Source: Chloroflexota bacterium
GTDB taxonomy: Bacteria > Chloroflexota > Anaerolineae > B4-G1 > DUEL01
Length of the DNA: 64,000 nucleotides
Direction: 5' to 3'
Assembly: GCA_014874475.1 (NCBI GenBank)
Contig: JADBJJ010000017.1
Coordinates: 1 to 64,000, forward strand
Within the stretch, counting starts at the first letter, position 1. Every line of letters begins with the position of its first letter. The notes beneath the pieces were generated by a model. The model had not been told where the DNA came from. It saw nothing but the letters and a program-made list of their open reading frames with translations, and ran no database searches. The translations under genes were made by a program, and so were the position numbers. Shown piece after piece: positions 26,891 through 38,044 of this stretch.

Positions 26891-26931
26891 GGTGATTGGA
26901 CTGGCTCATACTATTAGGAGGTCACACGACT

Positions 26932-28116
26932 ATGTCCTCCCCTCTTCCTACACCACTGACCGAAAAACAACTGGACCGCGAATTTATGGCTCAGGTGGAG
27001 CCAGAATGGGAGAAACTGCTGACCTGCATGCAGTGCGGGACCTGCAGCGCGTCTTGCCCCACGGCAGACCTGATGGATTACTCCCCCCGTCAGTTGTGGG
27101 AACTGGTCCGCCTGGGGCTGCGCGACGTGGTGATGAATAGCCGTACCTTCTGGCTCTGCACCCAGTGCTATGCCTGCTCCGCCCGCTGCCCGCGCGGCAT
27201 CCTGACCAGCACCACTATGCGCCGCCTGCGCGAGTGGGCCGTCGCCAACGGCTATACTATCCCCCAGACGCTCCAGATGATGCGCCAGGCCGTCGGCGCC
27301 ACCCGCAACATCCTCAACGAGGACAACCAGACCCGCCTCATCTGGAGCCAGGGGCTGGAAAGCGTGGCGGAACGAGTCCGAGAGCCCGCAGAGGTGCTCC
27401 TCTTCACCGGCTGCGTCTCTGCGCTCTACCCGATGGCCTACAGCATTCCCCAGTCGCTGGTCCAGATTCTGGAACAGGCCCACATCTCCTACACCCTGCT
27501 GGGTAGCGAGGAGTGGTGCTGTGGCTACCCTCTCTACGGCGCTGGGTTTAAGGACGAGATAGGGGAACTGGCCCGGCACAATGTGGAGAAGGTTCGCTCC
27601 ATCGGCCCGAAAGTCCTGGTGGCGACCTGCTCTTCCTGCTACTACACCTGGCATCACCTCTATCCGGAGATGGTCGGCGATTCCTTCGGCTTTGAGGTCA
27701 TGCATGCCACCGAATTCCTGGCCCAGATGGTCCAGGAGGGCCGCATCCGGATGACCGAACTGGCCTGGACGGTCACCTACCACGATCCCTGCGACCTGGG
27801 CCGCAAGAGCGGCGTGTACGAGCCGCCCCGGACGGTCATCCGCAGCATCCCCGGCATACAATTGCGGGAGATGCCCCACGCAATGGAGAACGCGGTCTGT
27901 TGTGGCGGCGGCGGAGATGTGGCGATGACGGAGCCGGATGCGGTGGAGCACGTCTCCGTCCAGCGGCTGCAGGAGGCCATCTCCACTGGCGCCGAGGCCA
28001 TTATCTCTTCCTGCCAGCAGTGCAAGCGCACCCTGCTCCAGGCCGCCCGCAAGACCAAGACGCGCGTCCGGGTGCTGGATGTTTGCGAACTGATCTGGCA
28101 GGTAATGGAGAAGTAA
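26932..28116 (+). CDS. Fused HdrC-HdrB (HdrD-like) heterodisulfide reductase subunit
   Basis: ATG 26932 lies ten bases after AGGAGG. The product is 394 aa. The HdrC part has two [4Fe-4S] motifs, CMQCGTCSASCP (32-43) and CTQCYACSARCP (76-87). The HdrB part has two CCG domains: GCVS...EEWCCG...CSSC, then DPC...CCGGGGD...CQQC, which hold the non-cubane clusters in methanogen HdrB. In methanogens this subunit reduces the CoM-CoB heterodisulfide; in bacteria the natural disulfide or other acceptor is unknown. It is the first hdr gene, 39 bp before hdrA. A clear paralogue lies at 36830. Confidence 0.9.
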   Translation: MSSPLPTPLTEKQLDREFMAQVEPEWEKLLTCMQCGTCSASCPTADLMDYSPRQLWELVRLGLRDVVMNSRTFWLCTQCYACSARCPRGILTSTTMRRLREWAVANGYTIPQTLQMMRQAVGATRNILNEDNQTRLIWSQGLESVAERVREPAEVLLFTGCVSALYPMAYSIPQSLVQILEQAHISYTLLGSEEWCCGYPLYGAGFKDEIGELARHNVEKVRSIGPKVLVATCSSCYYTWHHLYPEMVGDSFGFEVMHATEFLAQMVQEGRIRMTELAWTVTYHDPCDLGRKSGVYEPPRTVIRSIPGIQLREMPHAMENAVCCGGGGDVAMTEPDAVEHVSVQRLQEAISTGAEAIISSCQQCKRTLLQAARKTKTRVRVLDVCELIWQVMEK

Positions 28117-28155
28117 GTTGACTGAAGGTAACTGTCACCTCGTGAGGAGGAAATG

Positions 28156-30126
28156 ATGTCCAACGAAGAACCGAGGATTGGCGTTTACATTTGCCACTGC
28201 GGGCTCAACATTGCGGCGACGGTGAACGTGGACGAGGTGGTGCAGTACGCCAGCACGTTGCCCAATGTGGTCGTTGCCCGCCCCCATAAGTACACCTGCT
28301 CCGAATCTGGCCAGGAGATAATCCGGCAGGACATCCGGGAACTGGGCTTGACCCGCGTCGTGGTGGCCTCTTGCAGCCCCCGGATGCACGAGCCCACCTT
28401 TCAGAACGTCCTGGCCTCGGCCGGCCTGAACCCGTACTACTTCCAGATGACTAACATCCGCGAGCACGTCTCCTGGGTGGTGGAGGACCCCGTCGCCGCG
28501 ACGGAGAAAGCCAAGCGGCTGGTGCGGGCCGCCGTCGCCCGGGTGAACTACCATGAGCCCCTCTTCCCCCGCCAGGAGAGCGTAACCCCAGCGGCGCTGG
28601 TCGTCGGCGGCGGCATCGCGGGCATCCAGGCCGCCCTCACCATCGCCGAGGCGGGCTACCAGGTCTATCTGGTGGAGCGGCAGCCGTCCATCGGCGGGCA
28701 CATGGCCCAACTGGATAAGACCTTCCCCACATTAGACTGCAGTACCTGAATTCTCGGCCCCAAGATGATGGATGCCGGTCGGCATCCCAATATCACCCTC
28801 CTGACCTATAGCGAGGTCATAGAAGTCTCCGGGTACGTCGGTCATTTTCGGGTTCAGGTGCGCCAGCGCCCCCGCTACGTCAACATGGACATCTGCACGG
28901 GCTGCGGGGCCTGTGCCGAAGCCTGTGTCTTCAAGCGGGGCGTTCCGAACGAGTATGATGCCGGCCTGAGCCGCCGTCGGGCCGCCTATATCCCGATGAA
29001 CGGCCAGGCAGTGCCGCTGAAAGCCGTCATTGACGACCAGGCCTGCCTCTACCTGACCCGGGGCAAGTGTACCCAGGCGTGCGCGGAAGCCTGCCCCACC
29101 AAAGCGATTGACTTCACCCAGAAAGAGCAAATTATAGAACTGAACGTCGGAGCCATCGTCGTCGCCACCGGCTTTGAGATGTTTGACCCCCGCCGTCTCC
29201 CTGCCTTCTCCTACGGCAAGTCCCCAGATATTATAGACGGCCTGCAGTTTGAGCGGCTCTCCAGCGCCACCGGCCCCACCCAGGGCCAGATTCTGACGTC
29301 CAGGGGCGAGAAGCCTCGCCAGGTGGCCATCATCCACTGCGTCGGCAGCCGTGACGAGAACGCCCATCGCTACTGCTCCCGCGTCTGCTGCATGTATGCG
29401 CTCAAACACGCCCACCTGGTTCGGGATAAGACCGGCGCGGAGGTGTTTGAGTTCTACATGGATATCCGCGCTTTCGGGAAGGACTACGAGGAGTTCTACG
29501 AGCGGGTCCAGCGGGAGGGCGTCTACTTCGTCCGGGGGCGCGGCGCGGAGGTCGTCGTCCTGGACGACGGGCGCATCCAGGTGAAGGCGGAGAACACCAA
29601 CCTGGGCATCCCCGTCCAGATAGACGTGGACATGGTCATCCTGGAGACGGCTATGGAGGCCCCGCACGACTCGGACCGGATCGCGACGCTCTTCGGCATC
29701 AGCCGGAGTGCCAACGGTTTCTTCCAGGAGGCCCACCCCAAACTCCGGCCCTTCCACACCAACACCGATGGCGTCTTCCTGGCCGGCGCCTGCCAGGCCC
29801 CCAAAGATGTGCCGGATACCGTCGCCCATGCCGGAGCCGCCGCCTCGGAGGTGCTGGCCCTGCTAAGCCGGGGCGAAGTGGTCATCTCCCCGACGACGGC
29901 ACTGGTGGATGAGCGTCTCTGCTCCGGCTGCAAGACCTGCATCACCCTCTGCCCATATAGCGCCATCACGTTTGACGAAGCGGCGCGGGTCGCCCAGGTG
30001 AATGAGGCCCTCTGCAAAGGGTGCGGCACCTGTGTCGCGGCCTGCCCGGCCGAAGCCATCACCGCCCGCCACTTTGCCGACCGTCAGATTCTGGCGGAAC
30101 TGGAGGCGTTGCTAGTCCCAGCATAA
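28156..30126 (+). CDS. hdrA: HdrA, FAD/Fe-S electron-bifurcating subunit, with a selenocysteine codon (UGA at 28747)
   Basis: ATG 28156 is five bases after GGAGG; ATG 28153 is also in frame. Read through UGA 28747-28749, the product is 656 aa with Sec at 198. The N-terminal part has ICHCGLNIA and SCSPRMHEPTFQN; the FAD site is VVGGGIAGIQAAL near 149-161. The segment TFPTLDCST-UGA-ILGPKM aligns with the usual TLDCSACILTPKM of HdrA, so UGA replaces a conserved Cys. Downstream are CTGCGACAEAC, CAEACP, and two C-terminal ferredoxin clusters CSGCKTCITLCP and CKGCGTCVAACP. Known HdrA bifurcates electrons from hydrogenase via FAD to HdrBC and ferredoxin. Sec-containing HdrA is known in methanococci and some bacteria. 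No separate start site precedes the 3' part, so two split genes are unlikely. Confidence 0.9.
28770..28787 (+). promoter_or_regulatory. Bacterial SECIS-like hairpin in hdrA
   Basis: GGATGCC (28770-28776), loop GGTC (28777-28780), GGCATCC (28781-28787): a perfect 7-bp stem. The first loop G is 30 nt from the U of the UGA codon, inside the 16-37 nt window known for bacterial SECIS. The GGUC loop is like that of the E. coli fdhF element, which SelB recognises. Confidence 0.8.
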
Positions 30127-30185
30127 CCCCAAAGAGACGAAGACACTGGCCATTTCCCTTCGTGTCTTTGTGGTTTGGGCTTTGA
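30126..30185 (+). repeat. Intergenic hairpin repeat between hdrA and mvhD
   Basis: CCCCAAAGAGACGAAGACAC and GTGTCTTTGTGGTTTGGG pair imperfectly around a 12-base loop. Same family as the copy at 26823-26890. It ends immediately before the mvhD ribosome site GAGGAGG. Confidence 0.5.
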
Positions 30186-30195
30186 GGAGGAACGA

Positions 30196-30633
30196 ATGAC
30201 CGAACCATTTGAACCCCGGATCATCGCTTTTATCTGCAACTGGTGTACATATACCGCCGCCGACAACGCGGGCGTGGGCCGGATGGAGCAACCGCCGAAC
30301 GTGGACATCATCCGCGTGATGTGCTCCGGACGGATTGAGCCGGCGTTCATCCTGAAGGCCTTCGCGCTGGGCGCAGACGGCGTTATTGTCTCCGGCTGCC
30401 ATCCACCGGGTGACTGTCACTACTCCAACGGCAACTTCAAGACCTTCCGCCGCATGCCGCTCCTGGAGCAGTTGCTGGCCCAGTTCGGTATTGAGAAAGA
30501 GCGCTTCCACTGGGGTTGGATTTCCGGCGCCGAGGCTGTCCGGTGGGCCCAACTGACGCACGAGTTCACCGAACGAATCCGCGCCCTGGGCCCCCTGAAC
30601 TGGTCGCGCCAGTTGGAGAGCAAGGAGGAATGA
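30196..30633 (+). CDS. mvhD: MvhD, Fe-S subunit linking hydrogenase to Hdr
   Basis: ATG 30196 has GAGGAGG five bases upstream. The product is 145 aa. The family motifs are FICNWCTYTAAD near 12-23, RVMCSGRIEP near 46-55 and GCHPPGDCHYSNGN near 74-87, a [2Fe-2S]-type cysteine set. In selenium-using organisms one of these Cys can be Sec; here all are Cys. GCHPPGDCHY has one extra Pro relative to the usual GCHPGDCHY. MvhD passes electrons from MvhAG to HdrA. Its stop overlaps an ATG of mvhG. Confidence 0.93.
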   Translation: MTEPFEPRIIAFICNWCTYTAADNAGVGRMEQPPNVDIIRVMCSGRIEPAFILKAFALGADGVIVSGCHPPGDCHYSNGNFKTFRRMPLLEQLLAQFGIEKERFHWGWISGAEAVRWAQLTHEFTERIRALGPLNWSRQLESKEE

Positions 30634-30635
30634 GC

Positions 30636-31601
30636 ATGGCCGGAAATGGGAAACTCAAACTGGGCCTCTACTGGGCCGCCTCCTGTGGCGGCTGCGAAAT
30701 CGCCGTGGTGGAACTGCGGGAGAAGATTCTCCTGCTGGACGAGGCGGCAGAGATTCTCTTCTGGCCCGTCGCGATGGACTTTAAGGTCAAAGACGTGGAG
30801 GCTATGCCGGATGGCCACCTGGACGTCTGCCTTTTCAACGGCGCTATCCGCACCAGCGAGAACGAGCATATGGCCCATCTCCTGCGCCGCAAGTCCAAAG
30901 TGCTGGTCGCGTTCGGCTCCTGCGCGTACGAGGGCTGCATCCCCGGCCTGGCCAACTTCTTTGAGAAGAGTTCCATTCTCCGGCGGGTCTACCTGGAGGT
31001 GCCCACGGTGGAGAACCCGGAGGGCATTATCCCCCAGCCCGTCACTCCGGTGCCCGAGGGAGAGATAGAGATTCCCCACTTCTACAACACGGTCAAGACC
31101 CTGGGCCAGGTGACGGATGTGGACTACTTCGTCCCCGGCTGTCCACCGCAGCCGCACCAGATATGGGCCGTGGTGGAGGCCATCCTCAGCGGGCAACTCC
31201 CCCCGAAGGGAAGCGTCGTCGGCGCCACCGAGAAGACAGTCTGCGACGAGTGCCAGCGCATCCGGGAGGAGAAGCGGATCAAGAAGTTCTACCGGTATCA
31301 CGAAATCATCCCGGACCCGGAGCGTTGCCTGCTGGAGCAAGGCATCATCTGCGCGGGACTGGCGACTCGGGGCGGCTGCGGGGCCCTCTGCCCCACCGTC
31401 AACCAGCCCTGCCGGGGGTGCTACGGCCCGCCGCCCAACGTCGTAGACCAGGGCGCGGCGCTCCTTTCGGCCGTCGCCTCGGTGGTGGACGCCGACACAG
31501 AAGAAGAAGCCGCCCGCATCGTGGGCGAAATCCTGGACCCGGCAGGCACCCTTTACCGCTTCGGCCTGCCTGCCTCCACCCTGCACCGGGCCCGAATGTG
31601 A
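30636..31601 (+). CDS. mvhG: MvhG, small subunit of cytoplasmic [NiFe] hydrogenase
   Basis: ATG 30636 lies seven bases after GGAGG and is preferred over ATG 30630, which overlaps the mvhD stop. The product is 321 aa. LYWAASCGGCEIAVVE near residue 15, GSCAYEGCIPG near 92 and the later FVPGCPPQPHQIW supply the proximal [4Fe-4S] ligands. The C-terminal CDEC, GGCGALCP and PCRGCYGPPP give the extra clusters expected of group 3c/Mvh-type small subunits. No Tat signal is present, so the enzyme is cytoplasmic. Confidence 0.93.
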   Translation: MAGNGKLKLGLYWAASCGGCEIAVVELREKILLLDEAAEILFWPVAMDFKVKDVEAMPDGHLDVCLFNGAIRTSENEHMAHLLRRKSKVLVAFGSCAYEGCIPGLANFFEKSSILRRVYLEVPTVENPEGIIPQPVTPVPEGEIEIPHFYNTVKTLGQVTDVDYFVPGCPPQPHQIWAVVEAILSGQLPPKGSVVGATEKTVCDECQRIREEKRIKKFYRYHEIIPDPERCLLEQGIICAGLATRGGCGALCPTVNQPCRGCYGPPPNVVDQGAALLSAVASVVDADTEEEAARIVGEILDPAGTLYRFGLPASTLHRARM

Positions 31602-31622
31602 GGGAAGTTAAGGAGAAATCTT

Positions 31623-33083
31623 ATGCGGAAGATCAGCATTGACCCGATTACCCGTCTGGAAGGGCACGGCAAGATAGACATCTTCCTGGACGAAGAGGGG
31701 AACGTTGCCAATGCCTATCTAGTCATCCCCGAACTGCGGGGGTTTGAGAAGTTTGCGGAAGGCCGGCCCGTGGAGGAACTCCCGGACATCACCCCCCGCA
31801 TCTGCGGCGTCTGCCCGGAAGCCCACCATATGGCCTCGGTCAAAGCCTGCGACGCGGTGTACCACGTGGAGGTCCCCTCAGCGGCGAAGAAACTGCGGGA
31901 ACTCTTCTATTCCGCCTTCTACGTCGCCGACCACATGACCCACTTCTACATCCTGGCCGGCCCGGACTTCGTCCTGGGGCCGGACGCGCCACCTGCGGAG
32001 CGGAACATCCTGGGATTGATCCACAAGGTCGGTTTGGAGACCGGCAGCCGGGTTATCCGCGCCCGGGGCATGGCGATGGACATCATCGGCATGCTGGGCG
32101 GACGCAAGGTCCATCCCCTCTTCGGCGTCCCCGGCGGCGTGGGCAAAGCCATCACCGAAGAAGAAAGGGCCCAGATTGAGACCACCGCCCGGGAGGAAGT
32201 GGAGTTCGCCCTTTTCACCCTGCAACTCTTCCGCCAGATTGTGCTTGACAATTCGGCGTATCGGGATATGATTCTCTCTGATGTGTTCACCCTGCCCACG
32301 TACTACATGGGCCTGGTGGACGAGAAGAACCGGGTGAACTTCTACGACGGTATGGTCCGGGTGGTGGACCCCGAGGGCCGGGAATTCGTCAAGTACGCGC
32401 CGTATGAGTACACCCAGGTTATCGCCGAGCGCGTGGAGCCCTGGACCTACCTCAAGTTCCCCTTCCTTAAAAAGATTGGCTGGAAAGGGCTGGTGGCGGG
32501 CAAGGATAGCGGCATCTATCAGGCCACTCCCCTCTCCCGTCTCAACGCCGCCGACGGAATGGCAACCCCCCGGGCCCAGGAAGCGTACGAAGAGTTCTAC
32601 GCGACCCTGGGCGGGAAGCCGGTCCACCACACCCTGGCGACCCACTGGGCCCGGCTGATAGAACTGCTCTACGCAGCGGAGCGGTTGCTAGAACTGAGCA
32701 CCGATCCGGAGATTACCAGCCCCTATGTGCGCAACATCCCCACAGCGACGCCGGATGAGGGGGTGGGCATTGTGGAGGCCCCGCGCGGTACCCTGACTCA
32801 CCACTACATCACTGACGAGCGGGGGCTGGTGGTCAAGTGCAACCTCATCGTTGGCACGACCAACAACTACGCGCCCATCGCGATGTCCGTCCGGCAGGCA
32901 GCGAAGGGGCTGATCCGCAAAGGGCAGGTCATCACCGAAGGGTTGCTCAACCGAATTGAGATGGCCTTCCGCGCCTACGATCCCTGCTTCGGCTGCGCCA
33001 CCCATGCGCTGCCGGGCCAGATGCCGCTGGAGGTGCGCATCTACGACGCTGAAGGGAACCTGAGAGACGTCATCTCCCGATAA
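31623..33083 (+). CDS. mvhA: MvhA, large catalytic subunit of cytoplasmic [NiFe] hydrogenase
   Basis: The product is 486 aa; ATG 31623 has AAGGAG six bases upstream. Nickel-site motifs: RICGVCPEAHHMASVKACD (L1) near residue 59 and DPCFGCATH (L2) near 454-462. A 24-residue tail follows His in L2, as in precursors or group 3 forms. All four Ni ligands are Cys, so this is not a NiFeSe enzyme. With MvhG and MvhD it feeds H2 electrons to HdrA. No maturation genes (hyp) or endopeptidase are in the window. Confidence 0.94.
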   Translation: MRKISIDPITRLEGHGKIDIFLDEEGNVANAYLVIPELRGFEKFAEGRPVEELPDITPRICGVCPEAHHMASVKACDAVYHVEVPSAAKKLRELFYSAFYVADHMTHFYILAGPDFVLGPDAPPAERNILGLIHKVGLETGSRVIRARGMAMDIIGMLGGRKVHPLFGVPGGVGKAITEEERAQIETTAREEVEFALFTLQLFRQIVLDNSAYRDMILSDVFTLPTYYMGLVDEKNRVNFYDGMVRVVDPEGREFVKYAPYEYTQVIAERVEPWTYLKFPFLKKIGWKGLVAGKDSGIYQATPLSRLNAADGMATPRAQEAYEEFYATLGGKPVHHTLATHWARLIELLYAAERLLELSTDPEITSPYVRNIPTATPDEGVGIVEAPRGTLTHHYITDERGLVVKCNLIVGTTNNYAPIAMSVRQAAKGLIRKGQVITEGLLNRIEMAFRAYDPCFGCATHALPGQMPLEVRIYDAEGNLRDVISR

Positions 33084-33098
33084 GGGCAGGCAGCGCGC

Positions 33099-33137
33099 CG
33101 TTTTCGCAGCGGCGGTTTCACTGTCGCTGCGAAAACG
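33099..33137 (+). terminator. Perfect 13-bp stem-loop between mvhA and the gcvH-like gene
   Basis: CGTTTTCGCAGCG (33099-33111) and CGCTGCGAAAACG (33125-33137), 13-base loop. No clean T-run follows (TTATTCT), so it may be an attenuator or an RNA-stabilising hairpin rather than a full terminator. Confidence 0.5.
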
Positions 33138-33203
33138 TTATTCTGGAAAAGTTGACGTCTGTGGTGAGAGTCCCGATGATCATCCCCAAAAAGGAGGTAC
33201 ACC

Positions 33204-33638
33204 ATGCAGATCGCCGGCATCGAATTCCCTGATGACCTGTACTACGACAAACAGCACAACTGGGCCCGGGTGGAGGGCAACACCGTCGTCCAGGGCATGA
33301 CCGATTTCGGTCAGCGCATCGCCAAAGAGATTGTCTACGTGGAAATCCCCCCAGTGGGAAAGGCCGTGACCCAGGGCCAGACTTTTATGTCTATGGAGTC
33401 CGGCAAATGGGTCGGGCGCGTCCCTGCGCTTGTCAGCGGCAAGATTGTCGCCGTCAACGAGGAACTGGAATTTGAGCCTTCCCTCATCAACCAGTCTCCC
33501 TTTGACCAGGGCTGGCTGGTCAAGATTGAGATGTCCAACCCAGCAGAACTGAACAATCTTTTCCGGGCCGATTCCCCCGAATTCCGCGCCTTCGTTGAGG
33601 AGGAAGCGGCCAAATACCAGGCCCTGTTGGGCGGATAG
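33204..33638 (+). CDS. Lipoyl-carrier protein, GcvH/LbpA-like
   Basis: The product is 144 aa; ATG 33204 has AAGGAGG six bases upstream. The lipoyl-attachment Lys is in MSMESGKWVGRV near residue 70, where GcvH usually reads ESVKA. The beta-barrel frame HNWARVEGNTVVQGMTD and NQSPFDQGWLVKIEM are GcvH-like. No gcvT or gcvP is present. Lipoate-binding proteins of this kind (LbpA) serve the sulfur-oxidising sHdr system, and GcvH-like genes occur beside hdr clusters. I favour an Hdr-associated carrier over glycine cleavage, but the sequence alone does not settle this. Confidence 0.8.
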   Translation: MQIAGIEFPDDLYYDKQHNWARVEGNTVVQGMTDFGQRIAKEIVYVEIPPVGKAVTQGQTFMSMESGKWVGRVPALVSGKIVAVNEELEFEPSLINQSPFDQGWLVKIEMSNPAELNNLFRADSPEFRAFVEEEAAKYQALLGG

Positions 33639-33825
33639 AACCCTTTTCGGAAGCGCCTTTTCAGCAACCGCAAAGGGCACAACAACACACAAAGAAACCG
33701 GAAACCCTTTACCCCTGATGGCTCGCTCATCCAAACCGCATGAGTGGAACTTTATCGCGCCAAGAAGCCATCACTCTTCACGTTTCACTCTTCACCCTTC
33801 ACCCCACCAGCAAGGAGGCCCCCCT

Positions 33826-35403
33826 GTGATCCATCAAACCCGACGTTCCGGACCTGTCCTCCTGCTCTGCCTGGCCGGTGTCGCCTGCCTCGTGCTGCTG
33901 ACGGGCTGCACTCCCAGCCCGCGTTTGGTCCCTCTGATGGACCCTTCACCGGGCTGGGCCATAGACCTGGAGCGATTCCGGGCTTCGGCCCATGGCCACC
34001 TGGACTGCGCCACCTGTCACCCGGATATCACCCCCGCCGACGAGTTGTCCCCGCATCCGGACCCGGCCCGGCTGACCCAGGATGCCCGCGCTCTCTACGA
34101 TTACGCCCGCTGCGCCGAATGCCATCCCAATGAATATGCCGCCTACGAACAGGGCATACACGCCGACGCCCGGGCCCGGTCCGAAGAGGGCGCCTTTCCC
34201 GCCCCCACCTGCGGCCACTGCCACGATGCCCATTACGTTGCTTCCGGGACGCGCGCCCAGGTGATGCAGTTTGTCACCCAGACCTGTGGCGAATGCCACC
34301 CCAAGGCGCTGAAGACGTACCAGCACGATTATCATGGCAAAGCCGTCATCCTGGGCCGGGAGAACTCGGCCACCTGTGCCGACTGCCACGGCGCCCACAA
34401 CGTCCTGGCCCTGGCGACCCCCGAGGAGGAATACCAGGCCTGCCGCCGCTGCCACCCCCAGGCCACCCTCGGGATGACGGGTTACTACGTCCACGCGCAG
34501 AAGACACTACAGGCCGCGCCGGATGACCCCCGTCGCCAGGACTTCGCCCTGTTCTTCTGGGTGCAACTCTTCTTCGTCGTCCTGACGGCCAGCGTCCTGA
34601 CGGTCTTCTACGCCCACACTGTCCTCTGGTTCCTGCGCAGTCTGCACGAGCGGCTCCGCCAACCCGCCGGCCACGCGGCAAAAAAGGCCAAAGAAGAAGG
34701 GCCCCAGTACTGGCGCTTCAACATCTACCACCGCCTGGTCCACCTGCTGGTGATGACCAGTTTCTTCGGCGCCACGATCAGCGGGATGCCCCTAAAGTAC
34801 CCGACAGCCGGCTGGGCCCAGTGGCTCACCCGTCTCCAGGGCGGAGTGGAGGTGATGGGCATTATCCACCGCATCAGCGCGGTGGTGATCGCCATCTGGT
34901 GCCTGATGCACCTGGCCTACATCGTCCACTACGTCTTCGTCCAGAAGCACAAGCCCTGGGGGCCCGATACCCCTGTGCCGACGATCAAAGACTTCAAAGA
35001 CATCTGGCAGAACTTCAAGTATTTCATCGGCAAGGGGAGCCGTCCCGTCTTTGACCGCTTCGCCTACTTTGAGAAGTTTGACTACTGGGCCGTCTTCTGG
35101 GGCGTCCCGGTCATCGGCCTTTCTGGGCTCATCCTCTGGTTTGAGGACTTCTTCTCCCGCTTCCTGCCCGGCATCGTCATCAACATCGCCCACATTATGC
35201 ACAGCGATGAAGCCCTGCTGGCTGTGGGCTTCATCTACATCGTCCACCTCTTCAACACCCACATCCGGTTTGACCAGTTCCCGCTCAACAAGGTCATCTT
35301 TACCGGCAAGGTCAGCGAAGAGGAGTTGCGCCACGAGCGGCCGCTGGAGTGGGAACGGATTCAAGCCGACCCCAGGCGTGCAGAGGAGATGAGAGTACGA
35401 TGA
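33826..35403 (+). CDS. Hexahaem c-type / membrane cytochrome b fusion lipoprotein
   Basis: GTG 33826 follows AAGGAGG by seven bases. The product is 525 aa. The N-terminus is a signal with lipobox LLTGC (Cys about 28). Six CxxCH motifs follow: CATCH 61, CAECH 96, CGHCH 129, CGECH 154, CADCH 184 and CRRCH 206. From about 240 on come five hydrophobic helices with His residues (NIYHRLVHLL, IIHRISAVVIAIWCLMHLAY, VGFIYIVHLFNTH), as in formate dehydrogenase gamma/cytochrome b561-type haem b subunits. The predicted path is between external haems and the membrane or quinone pool. The stop overlaps the next ATG by ATGA. Confidence 0.85.
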   Translation: MIHQTRRSGPVLLLCLAGVACLVLLTGCTPSPRLVPLMDPSPGWAIDLERFRASAHGHLDCATCHPDITPADELSPHPDPARLTQDARALYDYARCAECHPNEYAAYEQGIHADARARSEEGAFPAPTCGHCHDAHYVASGTRAQVMQFVTQTCGECHPKALKTYQHDYHGKAVILGRENSATCADCHGAHNVLALATPEEEYQACRRCHPQATLGMTGYYVHAQKTLQAAPDDPRRQDFALFFWVQLFFVVLTASVLTVFYAHTVLWFLRSLHERLRQPAGHAAKKAKEEGPQYWRFNIYHRLVHLLVMTSFFGATISGMPLKYPTAGWAQWLTRLQGGVEVMGIIHRISAVVIAIWCLMHLAYIVHYVFVQKHKPWGPDTPVPTIKDFKDIWQNFKYFIGKGSRPVFDRFAYFEKFDYWAVFWGVPVIGLSGLILWFEDFFSRFLPGIVINIAHIMHSDEALLAVGFIYIVHLFNTHIRFDQFPLNKVIFTGKVSEEELRHERPLEWERIQADPRRAEEMRVR

Positions 35404-36833
35404 AGACCATCCGCGTCCTGCTCATCCTGCTGCTGATGGTACTGATCGGGGCCGTCGCCGGTTCGGCCGTCCTTGCCCAGGGCCCCGGGAACGGTGGCGG
35501 AGAGGCCAACTGCTGGGCCTGCCACCGACAGCCGAACCCGAACACCCTCTCCGGCGCTGAGGCGGAGATTGCCTTCTGCCTGAAGTGCCATGGCGACCCA
35601 CAGGTGGAGACCTGGGCCACCGAAGGCCGCACGCCGGTCTACGTGGACCCGGCCCGCCACGCGCAGACCCTGCACGGGCGCGTCGCCTGCACCGCATGCC
35701 ATACGGACGTGGCCCGCAATCCCCACCGGGCCACGGAACCGGTCGCCTGCGAGAACTGCCATGCGGCCATTCTGGCCCACGTCCACATGGGCGCGCCGCA
35801 CCTGAGCACCGACTGCGCGGCCTGCCACCGCCCCGACCTGCCCGTTATCCGGGATACTGCAACGGGCCGTATCGTCGTGGCGAAGACCGACGCAGCCGGA
35901 AACCCCGTGGACCGGACCGCCCACGCGTTGGTCGCGCGGCCCGACTGTGAGAACTGCCATTATACTGGGAATCCAGTGGGGGCCCCGGCAATTGCGCTTC
36001 CGGCCCGGAGCGTCCTCTGCATGCCCTGTCACGAGGCTGCCCCTATTGTCAAAGACCCCTGGTCGGCGGTCGGGCTCCTGATCTTCCTGGCCGGGATGAC
36101 CGTCAACATCTCCATCTATCTCCGGGGCGAACTCCCAGGCCATCCGGGCGCAACCGCGATGCAGAAACTCTCCTACATCGCAGAAGGCTTGACCCGGCTG
36201 ATATTCTCCCGCCGCTTCTTCCGGGTGGTCGGCAGCAAACTGGCCGACGGCATCTTCCTGCGCCGGTCGCTTCAGGAGAGCGTCAGCCGCTGGGTGATGC
36301 ACACCCTCATCTACTGGCCCTTCCTGGCCCGCTTCCTGCTGGGCCTGATCACCTGGGCCGGGGAAGCCTTCTGGCCCGCCGCCCACTGGACCCGCGTCCT
36401 GGCCGACCGGGACACGCCGGGCGTCGCGTTCTTCAACGACCTCTGCGCTGCGCTGGTCATCCTGGGTGTGCTGATTGCGCTCCACCGGCGCTTCATCCGC
36501 CGCGACCCCCGTCTGCGCACCGGAGTGGAGGATAAGGCGGCCATCTCCCTGCTGGGCGCGGCCTTCTTCCTGGGCATTCTCCTGGAGGGCGTGCGACTTC
36601 TGAGCGTCGGTCTTCCGGCCGACCGCGCGGCCTGGGCGTTCCTGGGATACGCCGTTGCGGCCATCCTGCGGCCACTTCCTCTGGACTGGACCCAGGTTTA
36701 CCCGGTGCTCTGGTATCTCCACGCCCTGCTGATTATCGCGGTGATCGCGTACCTGCCATTCAGCAAATTGCTGCATATCCTCATCACGCCGCTGGTTGCC
36801 GTCATCAACACGGTCCGGGGAGGGCACAAATGA
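35400..36833 (+). CDS. Heptahaem c-type / NarI-DsrM-like membrane cytochrome fusion
   Basis: ATG 35400 overlaps the preceding stop. The product is 477 aa. The signal peptide ends near SAVLAQ (26). Seven CxxCH motifs are present: CWACH 38, CLKCH 60, CTACH 97, CENCH 117, CAACH 139, CENCH 183 and CMPCH 207. About six membrane helices follow from 221 to 465, including VMHTLIYWPFLARFLLG and YLHALLIIAVIAYLPFSKLLH, like the haem b subunits NarI/DsrM/HmcE. The next gene is a DsrK/HdrD-like protein, and DsrMK-type pairs form quinone:Fe-S oxidoreductases. Overlap of four bases on both sides indicates a tight operon. Confidence 0.85.
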   Translation: MKTIRVLLILLLMVLIGAVAGSAVLAQGPGNGGGEANCWACHRQPNPNTLSGAEAEIAFCLKCHGDPQVETWATEGRTPVYVDPARHAQTLHGRVACTACHTDVARNPHRATEPVACENCHAAILAHVHMGAPHLSTDCAACHRPDLPVIRDTATGRIVVAKTDAAGNPVDRTAHALVARPDCENCHYTGNPVGAPAIALPARSVLCMPCHEAAPIVKDPWSAVGLLIFLAGMTVNISIYLRGELPGHPGATAMQKLSYIAEGLTRLIFSRRFFRVVGSKLADGIFLRRSLQESVSRWVMHTLIYWPFLARFLLGLITWAGEAFWPAAHWTRVLADRDTPGVAFFNDLCAALVILGVLIALHRRFIRRDPRLRTGVEDKAAISLLGAAFFLGILLEGVRLLSVGLPADRAAWAFLGYAVAAILRPLPLDWTQVYPVLWYLHALLIIAVIAYLPFSKLLHILITPLVAVINTVRGGHK

Positions 36834-38044
36834 GCCCGATAGACCTCACCTGCTACACACCACGACAACTTCTGGAACTGGACGGTTGCACCCGCTGCGG
36901 CGAGTGCACCCAATGGTGTCCGACGTTTGCAGAAAAGCCGGACCTGGACGCCATCACGCCGCTGCGCAAAATTGAGGCGGTGCGGCGGTTTGTCCGGGGA
37001 CAGTTTGGTCTCCGGGCCCTGCTCTTTGGCCCCCGGCCGCCCAGACCGGAGGCGCTCCAGGCCCACTCCGCCGGTACATACGACTGCACCCTCTGCGGGC
37101 GCTGCGCCGTCGTCTGCCCGGCCAACATCCAGACCCGCGAACTCTGGATCGCCATGCGCCGGGACCTGGTCCGGCAGGGCACCTATCCGGCAATTTTTGA
37201 CCGTCTCCGGGAGACCTTCCTGACAGCCCACAACATCTCCGGCGACGATAACGCCAACCGGCTCATCTGGAGCCAGAACCTGCCCGAAATCCCGGAGGGG
37301 GTGGGCCGGAAGACGCGGGCGGAAGTGGTCTTCTTCGTCGGCTGCGTCGGCTCCTTCTACCCCCAGTCCTATTCCATCCCCCAGAACGCGGTCCAGGTGC
37401 TGGAGCGGGCCGGAGTAGACTACCTGACGCTGGGCGAGGAGGAGTGGTGCTGCGGCTTCCCGTTGGTCATCGCCGGGATGGGGGACGCGGCGGTGGAGAC
37501 GATGCGCCACAACCTGGAGGCGGTCCGCCGGGCCGGGGCACGGCGGCTGATCGCCGCCTGCCCGTCCTGCTACCACACCTGGAAGCACGATTACCCGCGC
37601 GTCCTGGGCGAGCCGCTGGGCTTTGAGGTCCTGCATCTGACGGAATTTGTGGCGGAACTCCTGGCGGAAGGGCGCATCCCGCTGAAGCCCCTGGAAGAGA
37701 CGGTGACCTACCACGACCCCTGCGACCTGGGGCGGACCAGCGGGGTGTACGACGCTCCCCGGGAGGTCATCCGGGCGGTCCCCGGCATCCGGCTGGTGGA
37801 AATGGAGCATCACCACCAGTACTCTCTCTGCTGCGGCGGCGGCGGAGATGTGGAGATGGCGGATAAGGACCTGGTCGCGGCGGTCTCCCGGCGGCGCATC
37901 AGCGAAGTCCAGGCCACCGGGGCGAAGATTCTGCTCTCCGCCTGCCAGCAGTGCAAACGGACCCTGGCGGGCGCGGCCCGGCAGGAGAAACTGCGCGTCC
38001 GGGTGCTGGACGTGGTGGAACTGGTGACGCAGCAGATAGAGTAG
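36830..38044 (+). CDS. HdrD/DsrK-like Fe-S protein (paralogue of the fused HdrC-HdrB)
   Basis: ATG 36830 overlaps the preceding stop (ATGA). The product is 404 aa. Two [4Fe-4S] motifs, CTRCGECTQWCP (20-31) and CTLCGRCAVVCP (85-96), then two CCG domains: GCVG...EEWCCGFP...CPSC and DPC...CCGGGGD...CQQC. It aligns along its length with the protein at 26932 (for example EEWCCG and TYHDPCDLGR-x-SGVY), so the two arose by duplication. It should be the cytoplasmic partner of the membrane cytochrome just upstream. Confidence 0.9.
   Translation: MSPIDLTCYTPRQLLELDGCTRCGECTQWCPTFAEKPDLDAITPLRKIEAVRRFVRGQFGLRALLFGPRPPRPEALQAHSAGTYDCTLCGRCAVVCPANIQTRELWIAMRRDLVRQGTYPAIFDRLRETFLTAHNISGDDNANRLIWSQNLPEIPEGVGRKTRAEVVFFVGCVGSFYPQSYSIPQNAVQVLERAGVDYLTLGEEEWCCGFPLVIAGMGDAAVETMRHNLEAVRRAGARRLIAACPSCYHTWKHDYPRVLGEPLGFEVLHLTEFVAELLAEGRIPLKPLEETVTYHDPCDLGRTSGVYDAPREVIRAVPGIRLVEMEHHHQYSLCCGGGGDVEMADKDLVAAVSRRRISEVQATGAKILLSACQQCKRTLAGAARQEKLRVRVLDVVELVTQQIE

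Follow-up and report, generated by a model that had tools for sequence, protein, structure and literature searches.

HdrABC-like complexes occur widely among bacteria that do not synthesise CoM or CoB; to our knowledge, the disulfide substrate of such complexes outside sulfur metabolism is mostly unknown. In work on HdrABC–MvhAGD, the CCG sites of HdrB reduce a disulfide. What do HdrB-type sites act on in the locus described here, in which a GcvH-like lipoyl protein, termed GcvHL below, is encoded among Hdr and hydrogenase genes? The same gap, that of the disulfide partner, is stated for Culexarchaeia in the passages of PMC9723716 used here.

We consider it fairly probable that GcvHL is a dedicated lipoyl dithiol/disulfide carrier for HdrB-type non-cubane iron–sulfur sites, in the role of CoM–CoB or DsrC. 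The sequence itself provides a GcvH fold (predicted), a lysine motif, a separate clade, linkage to HdrCB and to the lipoate ligase LplA, and conserved CCG cysteines; that the lipoyl group is the missing Hdr disulfide, we infer.

The predicted lipoyl protein and its gene cluster

The window, that is, the whole stretch of 64,000 nucleotides that was analysed, carries at 26896–38044 (+) a one-strand cluster for HdrCB1, HdrA, MvhD, a Vhu-type hydrogenase, GcvHL, two membrane cytochromes and HdrCB2. Those flanking genes that were examined are unrelated (response regulator, phosphoglucomutase family, NurA and radical SAM). The features of the cluster are:

26896–28116 (+), HdrCB1, fused HdrC–HdrB-like protein with two CCG stretches, soluble Hdr module (Pfam CCG and Fer4_8)
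28153–30126 (+), HdrA, with an in-frame TGA at 28747 (CST-U-ILGPKM), a probable selenocysteine
30175–30633 (+), MvhD/VhuD-like iron–sulfur protein (Pfam FlpD, 168 bits)
30630–31601 (+), VhuG-like hydrogenase small subunit (NF045875, 235 bits, below the cut-off of 450), its start inferred inside the ORF 30516–31601
31623–33083 (+), VhuA-like NiFe hydrogenase large subunit (NF041785, 401 bits, below the cut-off of 800; Pfam NiFeSe_Hases)
33099–33137 (+), 18-pair, terminator-like hairpin in the gap between VhuA and GcvHL
33204–33638 (+), GcvHL, GcvH-fold lipoyl-carrier protein of 144 aa, with predicted lipoyl-lysine K68 in ESGKWVGR
33595–35403 (+), multihaem cytochrome c/cytochrome b561-like membrane protein (Pfam Cytochrome_C7 over and Ni_hydr_CYTB just under the cut-off); the true start is uncertain and the ORF as given overlaps the 3′ end of GcvHL
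35349–36833 (+), multihaem c plus NarI/HdrE-like membrane cytochrome b (Pfam Cytochrom_c3_2 and Nitrate_red_gam)
36830–38044 (+), HdrCB2, HdrD/DsrK-like, with two complete CCG motifs (Pfam)

The ORF, its Pfam GCV_H match (128 bits) and its neighbours all bear out the earlier note's description of a GcvH-like lipoyl protein inside an Hdr/hydrogenase cluster, and its lysine lies, as that note had observed, in ESGKW rather than ESVKA. GcvHL passes NF002270, a broad GcvH subfamily model (134 bits, cut-off 117), and misses the cut-off of the gcvH equivalog TIGR00527 (101.9 against 115.85 bits); its translation contains no cysteine. The AlphaFold model (pLDDT 94.3) superposes on the Thermus thermophilus H-protein 1onl with TM-scores of 0.85/0.96, an rmsd of 1.1 Å and 38% identity. 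In this predicted structure, K68 lies between strands 60–65 and 70–75, at the tip of a hairpin, and aligns with the lysine of the 1onl ESVK motif, the conserved lipoyl-lysine of the GcvH fold, so lipoylation at K68 is predicted. A weaker structural match (TM 0.69) is to 5a35, the comparison being with the GcvH-L/SirTM lipoyl protein. That protein is encoded in an operon with LplA2, a macrodomain protein and SirTM, whereas the neighbours of GcvHL are Hdr genes. The closest named relative of GcvHL is a protein from a Thermoflexales metagenome-assembled genome (MAG), 97% identical.

At the downstream end of the cluster, HdrCB2 has both CCG motifs complete, and its ten CCG cysteines are invariant in 15 aligned sequences (25 family members were found); with all of them kept in these 15, the HdrCB2 sites look intact. 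The window HdrA ORF is broken at TGA 28747, in the context CST-U-ILGPKM, and the same TGA interrupts a second HdrA of the host genome (L138:12425-14383). A motif scan of HdrA in all loci covered distinguished 13 contexts, of which 10 have TGA and 3 TGC, and a tRNA-Sec match in the host genome scores 72.1 bits (gathering score 47). HdrA is thus likely a selenoprotein rather than a broken gene; ORF callers cut both genomic copies in two at this TGA. Selenocysteine is known in methanogen HdrA (PMC12054007).

The hairpin at 33099–33137 is strong and possibly a terminator or a processing site. The 120-base gap between VhuA and GcvHL has a folding z of −1.74, and the terminator scan overall found 8 sites against 7.7 in shuffles. 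A promoter-like match lies at 33152–33180, upstream of GcvHL. Taken with the hairpin, this match makes a transcription unit of its own possible for GcvHL; that it begins a separate unit together with the membrane genes is suggestive only.

Separation from housekeeping GcvH and apparent kinship with LbpA-like proteins

The host genome (3.02 Mb, 97.7% complete) contains one further GCV_H match, with ESVKAASD at the lysine, on contig C30. Its only two GDC-P matches both lie on contig C10 and represent a split gcvP, in keeping with the earlier note's remark that no glycine-cleavage gene is nearby. Searches of the same genome gave four LplA/B-family matches, two lipA matches over the cut-off (canonical lipA), two strong dihydrolipoyl-dehydrogenase matches, one of which is just under the cut-off, and, genome-wide, no DsrC match.

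The tree of GcvH, GcvHL and LbpA-like proteins was built from 108 rows and 149 columns, with a bootstrap that had not settled; a partial sequence (L098), a duplicate (L143, of L143_Afe), identical cores, second within-locus matches and HMM matches below 70 bits were left out. All 46 GcvHL rows form a single clade (support 99/90), and a 95/89 branch parts the GcvHL/LbpA-like side from 49 GcvH-labelled rows, among them the host's C30 GcvH. On the GcvHL side of this branch also lie L106, L128, a protein of an Acidithiobacillus plasmid, L124 (EAGKYVGP) and L153 (EAGKWVGG). The GcvH label takes two changes on the tree, because L131 groups with L059 and L064.

A housekeeping GcvH is rejected on four grounds: the tree, the motif, the presence of another GcvH in the genome and the neighbouring genes. 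The earlier note's reservation, that its reading would fall if GcvHL clustered with housekeeping GcvH in a genome with gcvT/gcvP and no other gcvH, lapses, since a second GcvH and gcvP are on other contigs and GcvHL has a clade of its own. A related alternative makes GcvHL a surplus H protein of glycine cleavage, or a lipoyl relay, placed in the Hdr cluster by chance; its GcvH fold, its GCV_H score and its passing of NF002270 would speak for this. We regard this as very improbable, given the second genomic GcvH with ESVKA, the separate clade, the score under the TIGR00527 cut-off and an Hdr linkage that recurs across many genera.

The phylogeny that the earlier note had called for therefore sets GcvHL apart from GcvH and beside LbpA-like proteins. 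The adjoining rows are three (L106, L128 and the Acidithiobacillus row), their LbpA-like label resting on cysteines and context; none has been studied experimentally, and the branches are long, including those of L128 and the Acidithiobacillus row. The best stand-in for LbpA is L128, whose gene precedes hdrC-, hdrB- and short hdrA-like genes. Plasmid searches for a named LbpA returned, among the best 40 of 161 and the best 40 of 150 matches, mostly annotated GcvH and one Acidithiobacillus relative. The LbpA-like rows carry ES(G/A)KW, as GcvHL does, which rules out ESGKW as a signature exclusive to GcvHL.

Hdr-linked GcvH-like carriers with their own ligases are established in the case of LbpA in sHdr sulfur oxidation (PMC6067878, PMC10332631). 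GcvHL could accordingly be imagined as a sulfur carrier of the LbpA type, its lipoyl arm holding a persulfide that Hdr proteins would oxidise, as proposed for sHdr; the nearest tree relatives are two-cysteine LbpA-like proteins, one of them (L128) directly upstream of Hdr genes, and the motif is common to both. In LbpA, two cysteines are conserved, one towards each terminus, with exceptions among the archaeal LbpAs (PMC6067878). By contrast, no GcvHL row has two (0 of 46; 40 have none and 6 have one, counted after trimming each row to its profile match with margins), so by that criterion GcvHL is not an LbpA; the kinship suggested by the earlier note is supported by the motif and by the place beside LbpA-like rows in the tree. 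Further, none of the ten recurrent neighbour families to which Pfam gave an identity is a sulfur-transfer family, and the window HdrA is full-length and accompanied by MvhD and hydrogenase. We therefore judge the sulfur-carrier reading unlikely.

Several other GcvH-like proteins came to light. Four loci of the same genus (L118, L122, L126 and L127) encode a paralogue with ETMKTDI or ETMKTDIA at the lysine, in a separate long-branched clade, and two loci of genome G065 (L155 and L157) contain long ORFs in tandem that show weak GcvH-like matches but lack a lipoyl-lysine motif. On an Acidithiobacillus ferrooxidans plasmid (L143:11986-12432), a protein with ESGKWAGG and N- and C-terminal cysteines neighbours hemerythrin, globin, DUF2249, hcp and a CCG-type protein, in what looks like a nitrosative-stress cluster. 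At L106:5724-8794 (genome G052), a two-cysteine LbpA-like protein (ESGKWVGP) is encoded behind DsrE, NarI-like and DsrK-like genes.

Recurrent neighbours and co-occurrence

Bacterial and archaeal genomes were scanned with six search peptides, which yielded 62 loci: the 43 nearest (L004–L046) and 19 more distant GCV_H loci (L047–L065). The nearest loci come from Anaerolineae and other Chloroflexota MAGs, one Firmicutes, one Clostridia and one labelled Propionibacteriaceae, the last possibly misbinned. All 43 carry ESGKWVGR and none of the 19 does, a frequency partly ascertained by the motif's presence in one of the six search peptides. Two distant loci, L059 and L064 from Caldimicrobium, lack the lysine, their GcvH-like proteins reading ESVEE.

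Hdr-type genes are found near GcvHL in 37 of the 43 loci: HdrCB in 25, HdrA in 16 and MvhD in 11. A NarI-like gene and LplA are each present in 18, and iron–sulfur/NAD-binding modules, which resemble Flx or sulfhydrogenase subunits, in 7. All of these are absent from the 19 distant loci. These counts, taken at a threshold of at least 100 bits, are not unbiased, because the profiles were built from the same 43 loci and contig ends truncate many of these loci. The order gcvHL – narI-like – hdrCB – ubiA – lplA recurs in five loci (L025, L026, L028, with cytochrome genes interposed, L032 and L034), and L012 and L024 have the gcvHL/narI-like/hdrCB/lplA order without ubiA. The family identity of LplA was established on one member, L025 (Pfam LplA-B_cat and Lip_prot_lig_C).

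What most commonly accompanies GcvHL is not hydrogenase but HdrCB, in many cases together with a NarI/HdrE-like membrane protein. A Vhu-type large subunit lies near 3 of the 43 loci and none of the 19, with a profile that covers the Vhu type and is blind to other hydrogenases. Of the hydrogenase-type Hdr link proposed in the earlier note, the tie to Hdr thus stands, the recurrent partners being HdrCB and LplA; a carrier tied to hydrogenase as such is weakened. Candidate soluble partners in other loci are iron–sulfur and FAD/NAD modules and, at the host's C22 locus, formate dehydrogenase.

A different partner is suggested by a GlcD-type gene in 5 of the 43 loci (0 of the 19): the carrier might serve an FAD-linked hydroxy-acid oxidase and a CCG protein, making the Hdr/hydrogenase link of this lineage secondary. 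GlcD, HdrCB and GcvHL are contiguous in two Firmicutes loci and in the divergent relative L124. No GlcD is among the genes identified in the window cluster, however, and for 38 of the 43 loci the stretch covered contains none, which leaves this a quite unlikely account of GcvHL. The three consecutive gene sets (L045, L046 and L124, with LplA in the same stretch for L046 and L124) are possible systems of lipoyl-linked hydroxy-acid oxidation. The L124 cluster also contains a dihydrolipoyl-dehydrogenase-like gene (398.1 bits, below the cut-off of 408.8) and a LipB–LipA fusion; since this stretch also includes a 2-oxoacid-dehydrogenase E2-type gene, the cluster was not taken as evidence of a redox role.

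Across 150 genomes of the window's class, GcvHL is present in 32, as judged with a profile from 29 of 44 proteins at E 1e-40 or better. The search for a ligase gene proposed in the earlier note led to a co-occurring LplA subfamily. LplA scores are bimodal, with 28 genomes at 524–629 bits and 20 at 298–354 (one a fragment); scores of at least 500 bits occur in 25 of the 32 GcvHL genomes and 3 of the 118 others (G006, G128 and G141), and inclusion of the lower group gives 31 of 32 against 17 of 118. All 32 GcvHL genomes have HdrCB with an E-value of 1e-80 or better, as do 8 of the 118 others; with a threshold of 590 bits the counts are 20 of 32 and 3 of 118. The 500- and 590-bit cuts were set after the score lists had been seen, and the candidates scored in each genome were the best 14 or fewer for LplA and the best 12 or fewer for HdrCB. 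Fisher p-values range from 8e-14 to 2e-25 and ignore shared ancestry, which overstates independence. On the same contig and within 10 kb of GcvHL, HdrCB occurs in 23 of 32 genomes, LplA in 17 and either in 26; for seven genomes the distance between the ends of the gcvHL and lplA matches is just 11–44 bp.

The host's own member of this LplA subfamily, at C22:388777, scores 627.9 bits against the cluster-LplA profile (its NCBI lipoyltrans match is under the cut-off). It lies in a second Hdr cluster that encodes MvhD, LplA, HdrC, HdrB, HdrA (with the TGA), MvhD, a 269-residue ORF and a match to the formate dehydrogenase alpha subunit.

Several points count against the carrier reading. The window locus itself contains no LplA gene. 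Two genomes, G006 (94% complete and of the same genus) and G141, combine the LplA subfamily with HdrCB but yield no GcvHL at the threshold; three more likewise lack GcvHL, G128 having the LplA subfamily and both G058 and G115 having HdrCB. Neither Hdr nor LplA occurs in the stretch covered of L027, L030 and L031 (3 of 43), and L016, L021 and L035 have LplA without Hdr. Finally, in the reported results on Sporomusa ovata used here, dihydrolipoate or lipoate gave no boost to methylene-THF reduction by an HdrA-containing system (PMC9430772).

Proposed electron flow and comparison with known systems

If GcvHL is a dithiol/disulfide carrier, the LplA of the formate-dehydrogenase-linked Hdr cluster on C22 would lipoylate K68. 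Reduction of the lipoyl disulfide would fall to the soluble module of HdrA, MvhD, hydrogenase and HdrCB1, which might also bifurcate electrons to ferredoxin. Reoxidation of the dithiol into the quinone/cytochrome pool would be the task of the membrane NarI–HdrCB2 module; the whole flow may also run in reverse. The potential of lipoamide falls between those of H2 and menaquinone, and the potentials leave a thin margin for bifurcation from H2 to ferredoxin and lipoyl, so that a non-bifurcating or reverse direction is conceivable. The E′0 of lipoamide is given as −0.29 V (PMC6067878). More tentatively, and with rather less than even confidence, we suggest that the lipoyl protein could be a diffusible cytoplasmic redox hub, reduced with bifurcation by hydrogenase-, formate- or NAD(P)H-linked HdrA–MvhD, reoxidised by membrane NarI–HdrCB into the respiratory chain and charged by a dedicated ligase, thereby replacing CoM–CoB and DsrC. 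The genes for lipoyl carrier, ligase and HdrCB, conserved as a set, offer a testable candidate for what bacterial Hdr reduces; if the reading is true, it would take lipoate beyond acyl and aminomethyl transfer into respiratory electron transfer.

The idea of an Hdr-linked lipoyl carrier is already in print for LbpA and for Culexarchaeia GcvH. Among the matches listed from the open-licence PMC literature, we found no description of the GcvHL family of Anaerolineae/Chloroflexota, and ESGKW as a word gave no match there. GcvHL resembles LbpA of the sHdr system (Cao et al. 2018, PMC6067878) in being GcvH-like and Hdr-linked, in having a putative lipoate ligase of its own, and in the ES(G/A)KW of the LbpA-like rows next to it in the tree; the candidate ligase is the LplA subfamily in 18 of 43 loci and on the host's C22, its specificity for GcvHL being putative. 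It differs in its want of paired cysteines and in its association with hydrogenase-type and membrane Hdr instead of sHdr: against the sHdr set hdrC1B1A-hyp-hdrC2B2, the window has a full-length HdrA, MvhD, hydrogenase and NarI–HdrCB. A further trait by which an LbpA may be recognised is LipS1/LipS2 lipoate synthases encoded close by. The ligases also differ, the GcvHL-linked LplA having a C-terminal small domain (Lip_prot_lig_C, L025) that the studied TkLplA lacks (PMC6067878). Another Chloroflexota, Thermomicrobium, has sHdr with lbpA genes (PMC6776052). In the Ehe hydrogenase–Hdr cluster of Culexarchaeia, GcvH has been suggested as the disulfide-bearing partner of HdrB/HdrA2B2C2 (PMC9723716). 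That system is archaeal, with a group 4 membrane hydrogenase, and is likened here by its published description, the passages used giving no ligase linkage, motif or clade (PMC9723716).

Housekeeping GcvH is alike in fold, lysine position and 38% identity (1onl), and differs in motif, clade and neighbourhood. DsrC is a protein-borne dithiol/disulfide proposed to link soluble Flx–Hdr (FlxABCD–HdrABC) with the membrane NarI–HdrD-like DsrMKJOP; it relies on two cysteines where GcvHL would use lipoate, and the host genome has no match to it. In methanogens, CoM-SH/CoB-SH shuttle between HdrABC and HdrDE. The CoM-S-S-CoB system (HdrABC–MvhADG and HdrDE) shares with the window the modules HdrA, MvhD, CCG sites and an HdrE/NarI-like cytochrome b, and differs in that its archaeal small-molecule thiols would here be replaced by a lipoyl protein.
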